From assembly GCA_024644515.1 (NCBI GenBank), contig JAHEHN010000024.1, positions 1 to 64,000 of the forward strand: 64,000 bases of DNA. The letters run 5' to 3'. The first letter of the stretch is position 1. Each line of letters starts with the position of its first letter. Made by a program: the position numbers and the translations under genes. The notes under the pieces were generated by a model that was not told the origin of the DNA, searched no databases, and saw only the letters and a list, made by a program, of their open reading frames with translations. Positions 33,578-39,491 of the stretch are shown piece by piece. The stretch comes from Gammaproteobacteria bacterium (GTDB lineage: Bacteria > Pseudomonadota > Gammaproteobacteria > Pseudomonadales > Pseudohongiellaceae).

Positions 33578-36430
33578 ATGAAAAAATCAGTCGAAATGAG
33601 CTACAAAAAGCTCGCCACTGCGGTTGCTTTTGCAGCAGCAGCGACTACTTCCGGCTCACTGGTTGCCCAGGATTCGGACATCGAAGAAATCCAGGTAACG
33701 GGTTCATTTATTTCGCGTCCTGCTGACAGGCCACAACCTGTCTCTGTAATGGACAACGAAGAACTTCAGGCTAACCAGCGTGTCACTATTGCTGAGGCTG
33801 TGCGTGATATGCCTCAGATTTCATCAGCAAATACCGTTGGTAACTGGGCTACACCAACGAACAGCATCAACCTCAGGGGACTGGGAACACGTTCCACGTT
33901 GGTTCTGTTGAATGGACAACGTCAAACCATCGATGCTAACGGCGGCTCTCAGGTGGACATTAATAACCTGGCTCCAGCTATTATGCTTGAGCGTATCGAG
34001 CTGGTACTGGATGGTGCTTCTGCATTATATGGTTCAGATGCGGTAGCCGGCGTGGCCAACTTTATTACCCGCAACAATTTTGAGGGAGCTGAAATCTCCG
34101 TTTCCAGCCAGCATGCTGATAACCAGACCTCGGTACCGGAAGTGGTATTCAGTGGTATTTTCGGTGTTCAGGGTGATGACCTTGGTATTGTAATGGGACT
34201 TGAGTGGTTCAAACGCGCAGATCAAATGCAGGCGGAAGATCGCTGGAGCAATGAGCGTTTGGGTGAAGGCCTGATTACTGGTCTTTATAACCCGGGTACA
34301 TTTGGTTACTTTGGGCCACCACAGGCTGGCGGTTCTAGTAATGGCTTTTTCGGCGATCCACTTTGTGGCAGCCCGGAAGTTGGCGGCCTTGCTGAAAACG
34401 TAATTTGGGATCCAGCTGGTGCTACTGGTCATAATGCTGATGGTTTGCCCGATGGCTCCAACCCAGCAGGCTTCTGTCGTGGTACCCTGTCTCTGCAACG
34501 TACCATCATTCCTCAGAACGAGCAGTTAACTGGCATGGCTGTTGTGACCAAACAATTTGGTGGCGACTTCCTGCAGCAGGCTACACTGGAAACAAGTTTT
34601 GCCCGTGTTGAAACACTCTCAAGCTTTGGTACAGGTGTACCGCTGCTTGCCTTGACAGGCATTGGTGCAAAACTACCTGCTAACAACCCAGGCGTTATTG
34701 ATGCTCACCAACGTAGCGGTGGCACATTCCCTCTGCAGGACTTCAACCGAATCTTTACCCGTCAGGCCAGCCCACTGGAAGGTGACCTAGCTTCTTTTGC
34801 AAGGCAAAACACTTTCCGTGCCTCTTTAGGACTTGAAGGTATGTTAACTGAAGGTTGGGACTGGCGTTTAACCGGTACTATGTCCTTTAACGAACAGACC
34901 GCTCAGACTGCCGACACGATCGCAGATCGTTATGCCCGTGCTATTCAAGGTTATGGTGGCCCTGGCTGTAAAGGCAACCTGGTTGACGGACTGGCTAACA
35001 ACGCTAACCTGCAACAGGGTGTCGGTGGATGTCAGTGGTGGAACCCGTTTGCCAGTCGCTTGATTGCCGAACCGGGTGATGCTACCTACAACGATCCGGC
35101 TCTACAGGACTGGATGACATGGGGTGGCCTGGATCGCGGTACAGCCGAATTTTACTCCATGGAATTCATCACTACTGGTGAATTATGGGAAATGGCAGGT
35201 GGAGCTACCGGTTTTGCGGCCGGTGTACAGTATCGCCGACAGGTTCTGGACATCCTCCAGGATCCAATTGCCAAAGATGGCGGTTTTGGTTTTGCACCAC
35301 AGGTAATTCAGGACTGGTCCTCCAATCGTGATACAGAGGCTCTGTTTGCAGAAATGGTTATGTATCCAACCGACACTCTGGAAGTTGACGTGGCGGCTCG
35401 TTACGAATCAACACTGGGTCAGAGCTCCGTTGAGCCTAAGATAAGTATGTTATGGACACCTACTGATAACCTGTTTGTTCGTGCATCAGCCGGTTCATCT
35501 TTCCGTCTCGGTTCCGAGTTCCAGTCATTTGGTATTGGCGCCTCCGGCACCACCATCCGCGCTGTAGGTGGTGAGGTAACTCAGGCCCGTGCGATTGCTG
35601 CTGGTAATCCGAACCTCAAGCCAGAAGAGTCTGATAACTGGACTATAGGTTTCACCTGGGATATCAACGATGCCTGGACAGTTGAAGTTAACTACTGGGA
35701 TTACGAGTTCACCAATCTGATCACTACAGTTAGCCCTGATGATGTGCTGTTGGAAGACATGGCAGACGGTATCATTGATGATCCCCGAAATGGTGTGTTC
35801 CCTGGCCGTCCTCGCGAAGTATGTGAGATCACAGGAAGATGGAGTGGCAATGTTGCCGACCCCCTACCTGCTGGCTGTATCACAGGTCTGGACTTCTCCC
35901 TGTTCACTTCCTCATTCGTTAACAGGGATACTGTTGAAACATCTGGTGTGGATTACAGCATAGACTACAGTTTCGACCTTGCTGGTGGTGAAGCGGGTCT
36001 GCGACTGACTGGTGTCAATGTTCAGCGCTATGCTGGTACTACAAATGATGGCCAGCTCATTGATGTTGTCGGTACAAACGGCAGTGGTGTTTCCGGTGTT
36101 GGTACCAACCCTGAAAACAGGGTTAACCTGGTAGCTACTTATGCTACTGGCAATCACAACCTGCGTTGGACAAGTCGCTGGACTGACGGAAGTACCTTGC
36201 GTAACCCTGGAAACTTCGTCTACAACACCATTGAAGGCGGCGCTACGTTCCATGACTTTGTGTACAGCTACACGATACCGGGAAATCTGGACTCAAGTGT
36301 AACCCTTTCTATACTTAACGTAAGTGAGAAGGATTCACCGCTGGTGGCTAACTCCCTTACAACTGAAAATGGGGGCCTCTTTGATCCCCGTGGCCGGATG
36401 TATAGGCTGTCTTATAACCTGGCTTTCTAA
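33578..36430 (+). CDS. TonB-dependent outer-membrane receptor
   Basis: This 950-residue outer-membrane transporter is energised by TonB-ExbBD. A signal peptide covers about 1-30 (cleavage after VAQ). The TonB box region is IEEIQVTGSFI. The plug domain contains QPVSVMDNEELQ, NLRGLGTRSTLVLLNGQR and the hallmark LDGASALYGSDAVAGVANFITR. A 22-strand barrel follows, ending in aromatic Phe (YNLAF) as required for outer-membrane insertion. Paired cysteines within the barrel region suggest loop disulfides. The ligand is unknown: it resembles the large receptor family of marine Gammaproteobacteria rather than a recognised siderophore or B12 receptor. AAAGGGGA precedes the ATG. Confidence 0.92.
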   Translation: MKKSVEMSYKKLATAVAFAAAATTSGSLVAQDSDIEEIQVTGSFISRPADRPQPVSVMDNEELQANQRVTIAEAVRDMPQISSANTVGNWATPTNSINLRGLGTRSTLVLLNGQRQTIDANGGSQVDINNLAPAIMLERIELVLDGASALYGSDAVAGVANFITRNNFEGAEISVSSQHADNQTSVPEVVFSGIFGVQGDDLGIVMGLEWFKRADQMQAEDRWSNERLGEGLITGLYNPGTFGYFGPPQAGGSSNGFFGDPLCGSPEVGGLAENVIWDPAGATGHNADGLPDGSNPAGFCRGTLSLQRTIIPQNEQLTGMAVVTKQFGGDFLQQATLETSFARVETLSSFGTGVPLLALTGIGAKLPANNPGVIDAHQRSGGTFPLQDFNRIFTRQASPLEGDLASFARQNTFRASLGLEGMLTEGWDWRLTGTMSFNEQTAQTADTIADRYARAIQGYGGPGCKGNLVDGLANNANLQQGVGGCQWWNPFASRLIAEPGDATYNDPALQDWMTWGGLDRGTAEFYSMEFITTGELWEMAGGATGFAAGVQYRRQVLDILQDPIAKDGGFGFAPQVIQDWSSNRDTEALFAEMVMYPTDTLEVDVAARYESTLGQSSVEPKISMLWTPTDNLFVRASAGSSFRLGSEFQSFGIGASGTTIRAVGGEVTQARAIAAGNPNLKPEESDNWTIGFTWDINDAWTVEVNYWDYEFTNLITTVSPDDVLLEDMADGIIDDPRNGVFPGRPREVCEITGRWSGNVADPLPAGCITGLDFSLFTSSFVNRDTVETSGVDYSIDYSFDLAGGEAGLRLTGVNVQRYAGTTNDGQLIDVVGTNGSGVSGVGTNPENRVNLVATYATGNHNLRWTSRWTDGSTLRNPGNFVYNTIEGGATFHDFVYSYTIPGNLDSSVTLSILNVSEKDSPLVANSLTTENGGLFDPRGRMYRLSYNLAF

Positions 36431-36451
36431 GATTGGTTATGCAGTAGACAT

Positions 36452-36481
36452 AAAAAACCCCGCTTAGGCGGGGTTTTTTTT
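36452..36481. terminator. Bidirectional Rho-independent terminator after TonB receptor
   Basis: CCCCGC (36458-36463) pairs with GCGGGG (36468-36473), with six A before and eight T after. It serves both the receptor and the convergent gene ending at 36501. Confidence 0.9.
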
Positions 36482-36500
36482 GAGCAGGATTTTTGAAAAA

Positions 36501-37013
36501 TCATTCCGTTCTGGAGACGCGAATTTTCCTGTTGTTCCTCGAAGAGGATAACTGGTAAGAACCAAAACTTCTGCGTTGGATTGTGTAGAGCTCACCCACT
36601 TCAATATCATAACTCTTAGTACCAACCTGCTTCCAGATTCCGCCGCCTTCGAACTCAATGGTCCAGCCAGTGAAATCATTATGCTTTGCTGAAAGAACAC
36701 GATATGAACGTGAATCTGGCCCAGACTCCCTCTGTTTTTTCTTCTTTGTCTCATCAAGACCAAACTCATCCTGAACAGCACTTGAGACTACAGGCGCATC
36801 AACGTCAGACTGCGGGACGGTGTTGGTATTACGCGGGACACGAATTACCGGCAAATCCCTTACATTTTCACTGACCCGATCGTAACAGTTCAGCCTTGCT
36901 TCGGCATTCTCTATATCTGCACATTCGGTAATACTGGACTGTCCCAGTGCAAAACCGGATGTCAAAATAGGCCCCATCAGGGTTGAAAAAATAATGAAAC
37001 GTTTTGTTCTCAT
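36501..37013 (-). CDS. Exported hypothetical protein with N-terminal CYD motif
   Basis: This is a 170-residue protein with a signal peptide at about 1-24 (cleavage after ALG). The motif CADIENAEARLNCYD recalls the C-x(n)-D-x-x-ARL-x-CYD opening of many periplasmic proteins of unknown function, where the two cysteines may form a disulfide. A Lys/Glu-rich linker (89-98) leads to a beta-rich C-terminal domain (WTIEFEGGGIWKQVG, YTIQRRSFGSYQL) ending in several basic residues. No enzymatic motif is visible. It is convergent with the TonB receptor and followed upstream by a short lipoprotein gene on the same strand. Confidence 0.7.
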   Translation of the reverse strand: MRTKRFIIFSTLMGPILTSGFALGQSSITECADIENAEARLNCYDRVSENVRDLPVIRVPRNTNTVPQSDVDAPVVSSAVQDEFGLDETKKKKQRESGPDSRSYRVLSAKHNDFTGWTIEFEGGGIWKQVGTKSYDIEVGELYTIQRRSFGSYQLSSSRNNRKIRVSRTE

Positions 37014-37049
37014 ATTTATTTTAGTCAGATAAGTGATTGTAGATTAGAT

Positions 37050-37337
37050 TTAGAGATCATTCGTCGAACGTCGTCTTAATACATCTTCCTGTGTCTCTTG
37101 ACGCCGAAGATCTCTTTCCGCTCGAGTCATACAAACTCGCCTTCTGAAATTACTTCCGGTTACCTGCTCCCGACGACAAATTAGTTCATCAGGATCCTCT
37201 TCTGATTCAGAGCTCTCCGCTAACACTGGCTCGCCCGCAACAGTCGAAAGTTCATCACTTTCATCTGCTGGTTGAGAGGCACACGCAGACAAGAGAAAAA
37301 TTGCTAACATAATGAAATACATAGGTTTTTTTATCAT
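37050..37337 (-). CDS. Small lipoprotein, hypothetical
   Basis: This is a 95-residue lipoprotein. The N-terminus is MIKKPMYFIMLAIFLLSAC, with the lipobox LSAC and acylated Cys19. An acidic linker follows, then a conserved-looking segment ICRREQVTGSNFRRRVCMT with two cysteines, and a charged tail (RDLRRQETQEDVLRRR). The motif C-RRE-x-x-TGS-x-x-x-R-x-VC is widespread in small exported proteins of Gammaproteobacteria, with no known function. The ATG at 37337 is preceded by AAAGGGG about seven bases upstream, a clear ribosome-binding site. A much longer frame reaching 37913 overlaps an opposite-strand gene and is not real upstream of this start. Confidence 0.75.
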   Translation of the reverse strand: MIKKPMYFIMLAIFLLSACASQPADESDELSTVAGEPVLAESSESEEDPDELICRREQVTGSNFRRRVCMTRAERDLRRQETQEDVLRRRSTNDL

Positions 37338-37596
37338 TTTTTGCCCCTTTTGTGCAAATACTGTGGAATTCAGGATGTGGAGAATACATTGACTATATTT
37401 CAATTGCCAGAATTTAGTATGATAGCTGGTCTGCTTTAATATTTTTACTAATTTGCAGTTAACGTTTCTTAAAAAATACTTATTAAAAAAATAATACGCA
37501 GCGAGTATAGTGGGAAAGTTACAGAGACTATTTGGGAATAATCTAAAATAACTAGAGTCTTTTATTAAGAGCCCGGTTTTATTTAAGGAGTCATTT

Positions 37597-37980
37597 ATGT
37601 TTGCACGAGTTTTTTTATTGATCACCTGTCTTGGTCTGGCGTTGCCAGCGATTTCACAGACAGGACACCCGGCCAAGGGTTCCTGGTCAGGTAATCTGAA
37701 TCCTTTCTCTGCCGAAGGTCCGGTAAGAGTTCGCATGCTGATTGATGCATTCAATGGCGATCTCTCCGGCACAATCAATCCGGGCCGCAGAGGAGTGGAA
37801 ATGAGCAGTGTTGAGCTGGATGCTGAAAACTGGATTCTGACCATCACGGCAGACATGCCCGATGGCATGCTGGTCATGGAAGGAAAGTTAAGTAATCTTG
37901 GTTCCTGGACCAACAGGAAATATCGTGGCGCTTATACACTGGGAAATACAAAAGGCACTTTCGATATAACCTTGAATTGA
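37597..37980 (+). CDS. Exported hypothetical protein (127 residues)
   Basis: A signal peptide at about 1-20 (MFARVFLLITCLGLALPAIS) is followed by HPAKGSWSGNL and a beta-rich chain of alternating hydrophobic residues (VRVRMLIDAFNGDLSGTINP, WILTITADMPDGML, TKGTFDITLN). It looks like a single small beta-barrel or lipocalin-like domain in the periplasm. I recall similar HPAKGSW proteins beside DUF6152 genes in marine bacteria but know no function. Start: ATG with AAGGAG seven bases upstream. It is the first of three exported-protein genes on this strand, ending at a terminator at 39.46 kb. Confidence 0.7.
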   Translation: MFARVFLLITCLGLALPAISQTGHPAKGSWSGNLNPFSAEGPVRVRMLIDAFNGDLSGTINPGRRGVEMSSVELDAENWILTITADMPDGMLVMEGKLSNLGSWTNRKYRGAYTLGNTKGTFDITLN

Positions 37981-38110
37981 TGAACATCAAAGGTAACTAT
38001 ATTTTTTAGGTGAACAATTGAACCAACAAGCTGCCTGCTTTCTCAAATGACTCAATTGAGTAGAAAGGTATTAATTATCTACCGGGTATACCCCGTTACG
38101 GAGAAACAAA

Positions 38111-38545
38111 ATGAAAACTAAAATTCTGACACTGGCATTTGCTGCCCTATGTACATTAACCACTTATCAGGCTGCAGCTCATCATTCATTTGCTGCCGAG
38201 TTTGATTCCACTGTGCCTGTGCATGTAACCGGCACTGTAGTCAAAGTCGACTGGACCAACCCGCATACCTATATCTTCATGGAAGTTGAGACTGAAGACG
38301 GTGACTATGAAGAGTGGGCCTTTGAAATGGGTAGCCCTAATGGCCTGATGCGCCGTGGCTGGACACGCAATACTCTTGAAATTGGTTCAGAGATCATTGT
38401 TCGTGGTACACGTGCCCGTGACGGAAGCTTCAAAGGTAATGTGCAGACTGTCGTCATTGCTGACACTTGCGAGCGTTTGTTTGCCGGTACCAGCCAACGT
38501 GATTTTGACGAAGGTGCAATCGATCGCGAAGCCTGTGAGCTTTAA
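38111..38545 (+). CDS. DUF6152-family exported protein
   Basis: This is a 144-residue protein with a signal peptide (1-22, cleavage after AAA) followed at once by HHSFAAEFD, the hallmark of the DUF6152 family. Then come VTGTVVKVDWTNPHTYI, FEMGSPNGLMRRGWTRNTL and an OB-fold-like ending (VRGTRARDGSFKGNVQTV). The histidines after the cleavage site and the conserved NPH could bind a metal, which is inference. A Cys pair near the C-terminus (DTCERL, EACEL) may form a disulfide. AGGAG-like GGAG lies eight bases before the ATG. It sits between two other exported-protein genes, 130 and 71 bp away. Confidence 0.75.
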   Translation: MKTKILTLAFAALCTLTTYQAAAHHSFAAEFDSTVPVHVTGTVVKVDWTNPHTYIFMEVETEDGDYEEWAFEMGSPNGLMRRGWTRNTLEIGSEIIVRGTRARDGSFKGNVQTVVIADTCERLFAGTSQRDFDEGAIDREACEL

Positions 38546-38616
38546 TTTAACCACTATTGGTTAAAGTAAATAAGCTGTAAGTTAGCGTTAATATTAAGAA
38601 TAAACAGGTATAGAAA

Positions 38617-39432
38617 ATGTCAGGAAAAATGACAGGCAGTATTTTTAAAACCACCATTATGGCGACCACTATTGCTACAACTATATTGTTGCAATCAGTT
38701 GTTCAGGCTCAGCCTGGCGCCAGAGACGATGGCCCTTCAACACCCACGCCCAGAATGGCTGATGGCACAGTCGATCTCGGTGGTAATGGTGTCTGGAACC
38801 TGCCATGGATCACCAATTTTGCCGCCCGTATGCCTGGCTATGAAGAAGGTGATCAGCCTCCAATGCTGCCGTGGACCGCGGCCATGTGGGAATATAACAA
38901 GTCCAACAACGTCAAATATGATCCAGAAGGCTTTTGTTTGCCACCGGGTGGCCCACGCTCTATGGGTACTCCTTATCCTGCAGAAATAGTTCAGGACAGA
39001 GACCGAATCATTATAGTGTTTGAAGGTGGCGGTCATGTCTGGCGTGAAATCCATATGGACGGTCGAGAGCATCCGGAAGACCCAAACCTTACCTATTTTG
39101 GCCACTCCGTAGGTCATTGGGAAGGCGACACACTGGTGGTTGATACCGCGGGCTTTAACGAGAAAACCTGGATTGATTTCGGTGGCTACATGCACACAGA
39201 ACAGCTGCATACCGTGGAGTACTTTTCCAGACCTGACAAGGAAACACTTCATTACGAAGCTGTTATCGATGACCCGGGTGCCTACAGTGAACCCTGGACA
39301 GTAAGCTGGGATATTCGCTGGTCAGAAGGCCAGGAACTCGCCGATTATATCTGTCAGGAAAATAACAAGTTCCTGCTTGATATGGATGATGATTACGGCA
39401 ATCCGTTTTTTGAAAAAACAAATGGCTTATAA
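38617..39432 (+). CDS. Exported protein of a widespread uncharacterised family, found beside DUF6152
   Basis: This is a 271-residue protein with a longish signal peptide (about 1-31, cleavage after VQA). Conserved-looking blocks include WTAAMWEYNK, FCLPPGGPRSMGTPYP, IIVFEGGGHVWREIHMDGREHP, GHSVGHWEGDTLVVDTAGFNEKTWID and HTEQLHTVEYFSRPD. I recall the last three blocks from many secreted proteins of Acidobacteria and marine Gammaproteobacteria, usually without annotation. The strand-turn-strand pattern suggests an all-beta domain. No classical catalytic triad is obvious, though His and Asp are abundant. It is transcribed with the DUF6152 gene and closed by a strong terminator. Confidence 0.75.
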   Translation: MSGKMTGSIFKTTIMATTIATTILLQSVVQAQPGARDDGPSTPTPRMADGTVDLGGNGVWNLPWITNFAARMPGYEEGDQPPMLPWTAAMWEYNKSNNVKYDPEGFCLPPGGPRSMGTPYPAEIVQDRDRIIIVFEGGGHVWREIHMDGREHPEDPNLTYFGHSVGHWEGDTLVVDTAGFNEKTWIDFGGYMHTEQLHTVEYFSRPDKETLHYEAVIDDPGAYSEPWTVSWDIRWSEGQELADYICQENNKFLLDMDDDYGNPFFEKTNGL

Positions 39433-39461: not shown

Positions 39462-39491
39462 AAAAAAGGCGCTGTTTCAGCGCCTTTTTTT
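39462..39491. terminator. Rho-independent terminator after the exported-protein cluster
   Basis: AGGCGCTG (39467-39474) pairs with CAGCGCCT (39478-39485) around a TTT loop, with A and T runs on both sides. It also serves the convergent ABC transporter gene ending at 39531. Confidence 0.9.

Follow-up and report, generated by a model that had tools for sequence, protein, structure and literature searches.

A recurrent exported module that pairs DUF6152 with a 271-residue protein in a gammaproteobacterial genome

A 64,000-nucleotide stretch of a Gammaproteobacteria bacterium genome (Pseudohongiellaceae; assembly GCA_024644515.1, contig JAHEHN010000024.1, positions 1 to 64,000; hereafter the window) carries six adjacent genes at 33.6 to 39.4 kb, and these raise the question of whether they form one module and what such a module might do. 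The original prediction held that every gene in this region encodes an exported or outer-membrane protein, and proposed an undescribed module, perhaps for uptake or for periplasmic handling of a compound or metal. The six open reading frames (ORFs) are real and present at their predicted positions, and the claim of export holds because all six proteins have signal-peptide-like starts (by inspection). Yet the six genes are not one module. Three of them, which encode a 127-residue protein (HPAK), a DUF6152 protein and a 271-residue protein (F271), constitute a recurrent, largely undescribed exported module. Our preferred reading, to which we assign a probability of about 0.42, is that DUF6152 is an exported metal protein, probably binding copper, that is paired with a small-ligand-binding F271, and that this pair was diversified by ancient duplication. 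The features of the three-gene unit are as follows.

37597–37980, + strand: HPAK, an exported protein of 127 amino acids with a G-x-W-x-G motif (HPAKGSWSG); an optional third member of the module
38111–38545, + strand: DUF6152 protein of 144 amino acids (PF19649, E-value 2.1e-33), with a signal peptide followed by HHSF... and a predicted OB-fold
38180–38185, + strand: codons for His1 and His2, the predicted first two mature residues of DUF6152
38264–38266, + strand: codon for the third invariant histidine of DUF6152 (NPH motif, mature residue 29)
38617–39432, + strand: F271, the exported partner of 271 amino acids, with a predicted calycin-like barrel, two invariant cysteines and a GxW motif
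39462–39490: terminator-like hairpin (hairpin scan) located 3' of F271, closing the three-gene unit

The 144-residue protein belongs to DUF6152, scoring 114.7 against PF19649, for which the curated cut-off is 27 bits. Only this protein and a TonB-dependent receptor exceed a Pfam cut-off among the six, and neither HPAK nor F271 matches a Pfam or NCBIfam family. The genome that contains the window (2.71 Mb, 159 contigs, 98% complete) yields 53 matches to F271, 45 to DUF6152 and five to HPAK. From the window and 40 fetched stretches, 86 module ORFs were called, of which 42 contain F271 alone, 30 contain DUF6152 alone and 14 carry both in fused form. Scored crudely for hydrophobicity, nearly all of the 86 begin with what looks like a signal peptide or a lipoprotein signal; the called frame of one F271 ORF (L056_11) was too short to include its start. 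An F271 domain lies within 1 kb of 39 of the 45 DUF6152 domains, and such surroundings cover ~7% of the genome. Four of the five HPAK copies touch a module gene, and the fifth is one gene away.

This pairing recurs in named genomes. At the best 80 named F271 loci, all from metagenome-assembled genomes of Acidobacteriota, Gammaproteobacteria and a few Alphaproteobacteria, DUF6152 is present within 2 kb in 61, a fusion in 19 and HPAK in 18. These counts show co-location of three families that, according to the original prediction, might have proved to be independent and scattered. A constant third partner was not found in the window's own genome, where the top neighbours were SGL (3/71), PQQ (4/72) and TonB (4/72) proteins. 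The GxW motif of HPAK is present in 23 of 23 aligned sequences and is common to F271, but HPAK was rejected as a short F271 homologue because the two show no profile similarity (hhalign probability 0.27%).

Candidate functional residues emerge from the alignment of 44 DUF6152 proteins of this genome (the 45th, at C24:112781, was not among the called ORFs). His1, His2 and the histidine of the NPH motif are invariant, and no other position is. The residue preceding His1 is Ala, Ser or Gly in 43 of 44 proteins, and position -3 is small or aliphatic in all 44. Small residues at -1 and -3 are the cleavage rule of signal peptidase I, and the HH pair, which follows a cleavage-like site in 44 of 44, thus fits exposure as the first mature residues by this enzyme. 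Among 34 loci from a phylum sample, HH occupies the same place in 36 of 36 domains, and the internal motif is [NDSAM]PH in 33 and GPH or PPH in three. The His-rich block mentioned in the original prediction corresponds to this invariant HH...PH pattern, and its Trp-rich blocks to the G-x-W and GHWEGDTL motifs.

A broader collection of 203 distinct DUF6152 domains, drawn from all sets after four partial domains were excluded and duplicates were merged, reveals that 200 carry all three histidines, three carry none, and no domain is mixed. The internal PH histidine is never lost alone, being gone together with His1 and His2 in 3 of 203. The three His-less domains occur in fused DUF6152-F271 proteins (L093:3970-5319, L094:5242-6555 and L118:5545-6711), which look as if a metal site had been retired and the protein kept.

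Fusion order provides a second constraint. Unfused neighbours occur both with DUF6152 before F271 and with the reverse order (14:14 in this genome, 40:30 in related genomes), but DUF6152 is always first in fused ORFs (14/14 in this genome and 21/21 in related genomes, or 35/35). DUF6152 therefore appears to require a free N-terminus, with the proviso that related sequences are not independent observations. Because the histidines are all-or-none, and because fusions place DUF6152 first despite both orders of the separate genes, a single metal site dependent on a free N-terminus is suggested. His1 and His2 at the mature N-terminus would combine with the PH histidine into one site for a transition metal, copper being the likeliest. 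This three-histidine site is a prediction that is well supported by the pattern of conservation.

The predicted folds bear on this proposal. An AlphaFold model of mature DUF6152 (pLDDT, the predicted local distance difference test score, 89.9; 93 for the first ten residues) adopts an oligonucleotide/oligosaccharide-binding (OB) fold whose nearest matches are PriB and SSB (Z up to 8.9, root-mean-square deviation [rmsd] 2.5, 81 residues). A model of a natural DUF6152-F271 fusion was likewise confident (pLDDT 92.8, predicted template modelling score 0.89; first ten residues 83). Foldseek lists for the models contain OB-fold and PolD/LysRS entries with low template modelling scores, and the first 50 rows for the fusion model are OB-fold and other nucleic-acid-enzyme entries. 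Since OB-folds commonly bind polymers or proteins, and the matches here are PriB and SSB, the three histidines could instead play a structural part, or serve to bind either a protein partner or an organic ligand, in which case the copies would be exported binding or scaffold proteins that hold no metal. We consider this improbable, because purely structural residues seldom show such behaviour: three sequence-distant histidines lost all-or-none, and a strictly N-terminal position in fusions.

The F271 part of the fusion model (residues 122–336) weakly matches retinol-binding proteins (Z 8.1–8.4, rmsd 3.2–3.7, 115–122 residues), and a search of the PDB with the F271 sequence gave no match. Structure prediction has produced an OB-fold for DUF6152 and a weakly matched calycin-like barrel for F271. 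An alignment of 90 F271 rows, chosen from a larger number, draws on related genomes for 18 of their 21 fusions and 39 of their 122 single F271 proteins. The G133 and W135 residues of the GxW motif are present in at least 90% of these rows, which agrees with the weak calycin match, and two cysteines are invariant. This cysteine pair may form a disulphide. No F271 histidine is listed as invariant. The own-genome F271 alignment contains 55 rows, three weak stretches of 58 having been excluded. Some F271 proteins depart from the common architecture: one ORF of this genome (L056:250-1815) carries two tandem F271 domains, F271 matches in same-genus genomes also fall in open frames of ~530–550 amino acids, and a subgroup of ~454–486 amino acids (at L045, L049, L050, L062, L066 and L069) has ~190–230 residues before F271 that do not match DUF6152.

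Under the preferred reading, HPAK, DUF6152 and F271 would form an exported module, periplasmic or at the surface, in which DUF6152 and F271 act jointly and in many cases share a single chain. The calycin-like barrel of F271 would hold a small, probably hydrophobic molecule. What the many old copies reflect would be the variety of substrates or ligands, not the metal, whose part would be to help bind or oxidise them. A bolder version makes DUF6152-F271 a new class of exported copper oxidases or oxygenases, with a three-histidine N-terminal copper site on an OB-fold domain, small hydrophobic substrates held by the calycin-like part, and 45–75 copies covering dozens of substrates. We regard this version as unlikely, and if it were true one small genome would cover dozens of substrates in the manner of the P450 expansion in other lineages.

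Among 28 genomes examined, including the window's own, DUF6152 is present in 18 of 18 genomes of the family and was not found in any of 10 genomes from other families of the order. The number per genome is 45–75 in six genomes of the genus, 37–40 in genus g8, 18–22 in genus g2 and 1–2 in genera g3 to g7. F271 numbers 50–95 in five same-genus genomes and 8–54 in the remaining genomes of the family, and it was found in none of nine genomes elsewhere in the order. An even draw across the phylum detected DUF6152 in 22 of 249 genomes, mostly as one copy and at most as eight outside the window's own genome.

Comparison of this genome with the same-genus genome G005 (30 of its 75 loci were used) gave 20 reciprocal best pairs with a median identity of 82%, each pair exceeding its paralogues by at least 10 points; the best within-genome paralogue has 41% identity. 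Because identity between orthologues is so far above that of the best paralogues, the sequences indicate that the copies are old, separately kept and derived from ancient duplication. Many old paralogues are also described for Solibacter (PMC3174227), and no family of the DUF6152 or F271 type was found in that paper's passages on the Solibacter paralogues.

Several observations weigh against the preferred reading. F271 matches known structures weakly (Z ~8, from rank 30 downwards), perhaps through no more than a common arrangement. The first strand region has His1 at one end and His29 at the other, and the two may not come together. The profile that collected the 203 domains was built from HH-bearing sequences and could favour HH, and the three His-less domains may trace to one or two events. 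F271 is missing at 19 of 34 fetched phylum DUF6152 loci, and these mostly pair DUF6152 with a DUF6644-like membrane protein instead. Because many DUF6152 proteins outside the lineage lack F271, F271 would seem dispensable for the basic function.

A different explanation makes DUF6152 a copper- or nickel-binding protein of the periplasm (an 'anglerase' or a CopC-like carrier) that passes metal to a membrane partner, with F271 as a secondary helper. The partner would be a DUF6644-like four-transmembrane protein in most bacteria and HupE/UreJ-2 in the window's family. Of the 19 single-copy loci that lack F271, 16 encode a four-helix protein of the DUF6644 type (helices by inspection) immediately beside DUF6152 and on its strand. 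Its assignment is based on an hhalign probability of 99.9% to annotated DUF6644, and the one member scanned against Pfam matched no family. Within the window's family, a single DUF6152 adjoins F271 in seven genomes of genera g3 to g7 (the DUF6152 at L158 was found by genome search and was not called as an ORF), and all eight genomes of these genera have a divergent set that includes a CxxCH lipoprotein and a HupE_UreJ_2-type protein. The latter proteins form one BLAST cluster of eight, assigned by a Pfam scan of the member from L151. The conserved set beside the single-copy locus (L151:4556-6457 and its counterparts at L152 to L158) consists of the CxxCH lipoprotein, HupE/UreJ-2 and a membrane-anchored protein. 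Moreover, passages of PMC12537917 indicate that the N-terminal-His proteins characterised to date bind metal with little catalysis.

Despite this evidence, we consider metal capture as the principal role to be somewhat unlikely. One metal hardly explains 45–75 diverged copies per genome, and similarity between the DUF6644-like protein and CopD (PF05425) is weak (hhalign probability 2.8–45% depending on the profile; 0.5% for a HupE control). DUF6644 was rejected as a partner in the window's own genome, where the expanded lineage has two copies and neither is near a module. On sphingomonad plasmids whose records have a gene table, DUF6152 and F271 have TonB receptor, DUF6644 and monooxygenase genes as neighbours. 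As to the purpose of the module, the many old copies favour handling of substrates or ligands, and the single-copy contexts favour handling of metal.

What of the genes that precede the three-gene unit in the window? These and the hairpin among them are listed below.

33578–36430, + strand: TonB-dependent receptor (Pfam Plug, 1.5e-19; barrel, 1e-32); a neighbour, probably not part of the module
36452–36479: perfect hairpin with a T run, between the receptor and the convergent 170-residue gene; read directly and not listed by the hairpin scan
36501–37013, - strand: exported protein of 170 amino acids; a neighbour whose N-terminal 27 residues weakly resemble VasI, below the cut-off
37050–37337, - strand: small lipoprotein with an LLSAC lipobox, 95 amino acids counted from ATG; a neighbour

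The longer TTG-start ORF of the lipoprotein gene is a mechanical ORF call, and the 95-residue ATG form was used. The VasI profile (PF11319) matched 27 residues of the 170-residue protein with an E-value of 0.018 and 15.1 bits, below the cut-off of 26.5, and among the fetched own-genome proteins this protein matched itself alone. The six genes likely form three transcription units, with the receptor, the 170-residue gene and the lipoprotein gene outside the unit of the trio. A scan of the seven other large genes of the window turned up ordinary functions, among them a helicase, a glutamate synthase, a kinase and a permease. Elsewhere in the genome, repeated operons (L067:893-6297, L046, L032 and L061) encode a PSCyt/DUF1592-DUF1588-DUF1585 protein, a DUF1552 protein and an ankyrin-repeat protein, and several of these operons adjoin modules.

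If the receptor did belong with the trio, it might import a compound or metal complex, with the small exported proteins binding this cargo. Of the 17 places in this genome with a TonB barrel (from 18 match rows), five are no more than 2 kb from a module gene, compared with 1.8 expected (P = 0.026). This mild enrichment fades at wider limits, the counts being five at 3 kb (P = 0.064) and six at 5 kb (P = 0.073); at 1 kb the count is zero, and most modules have no receptor nearby. At named loci, TonB barrels account for five of the 120 neighbours scanned (of 155). In Croceibacterium atlanticum a receptor gene directly follows DUF6152-DUF6152-F271, and in Sphingobium sp. TomTYG65 one is two genes away.

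Three same-genus genomes (G002, G003 and G004) keep the gene order of the window, as does G005 apart from its lack of F271, but this does not support membership of the receptor because housekeeping genes are kept there too. In G012, which represents a sister genus, the trio, an ABC (ATP-binding cassette) transporter and DXS are kept in place, and the receptor, 170-residue and lipoprotein genes were not found in the 16 kb examined beside the trio. In the window itself, a hairpin and two opposed genes separate the receptor from the trio. Receptor-linked uptake is accordingly very doubtful: the receptor is not a constant neighbour, the neighbourhood counts and sister-genus synteny speak against it as a module member, and it is probably best seen as a neighbour. 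The undescribed module of the original prediction is thereby narrowed to HPAK, DUF6152 and F271, with the receptor, the 170-residue gene and the lipoprotein gene falling away. Of the roles proposed for it, metal handling is the best-supported idea.

In a 2.7-Mb genome ~86 ORFs, and more in sister genomes, fall into two families that lack a functional assignment. The predicted N-terminal metal site makes DUF6152 directly testable, would add a predicted OB-fold to the N-terminal-His metalloproteins, and offers a possible reason why some lineages (Gammaproteobacteria, Acidobacteriota and sphingomonads) have so many small exported proteins. Should the copies turn out to be specific for their substrates, genomes would allow a large and so far hidden share of organic-matter processing to be read.

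Searches of a library of open papers found no paper naming DUF6152, PF19649 or DUF6644, and none matching the motif strings of the module. The closest parallel is with proteins marked by 'signal strapping', in which a His that follows the signal peptide, at the mature N-terminus, identifies the metal proteins DUF4198, DUF6702, Ang-1 and Ang-2, as described in passages of PMC12537917; the passages of that paper that were searched do not include DUF6152. Like these proteins, DUF6152 has an invariant His predicted to lie directly after the signal peptide, along with further conserved ligand candidates. The same source reports that Ang-1 and Ang-2 are fused to HupE/UreJ-2, and that domains fused to HupE/UreJ-2 bind copper at the nanomolar level; in the window's family, the single DUF6152-F271 locus similarly adjoins a HupE_UreJ_2 gene. 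Unlike DUF6702 and the anglerases, which passages of PMC12537917 present as beta-sandwiches, DUF6152 has a predicted OB-fold and His-His in place of a single His.

DUF6152 also resembles histidine-brace copper proteins such as lytic polysaccharide monooxygenases and CopC in its putative mature N-terminal His and one internal His, a likeness at the level of sequence, but its fold differs and it has the extra His2. GxW is a lipocalin feature, and the model of F271 suggests a resemblance to calycins and lipocalin-like barrels (cellular retinol-binding protein) through a GxW near the first strand and a barrel aligning over 115–122 residues. Unlike calycins, F271 has no sequence family match and carries two invariant cysteines and long helical inserts. 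As in the CopC-CopD and YcnI-YcnJ copper pairs, in single-copy genomes the gene for DUF6152, a predicted exported N-terminal-His protein, adjoins one for a small multi-helix membrane protein, but the similarity of this DUF6644-like protein to CopD is weak. The Pfam entry for DUF6152 (PF19649) carries no function, and its partnership with F271, its HH...PH site and the expansion of its copies are described here.

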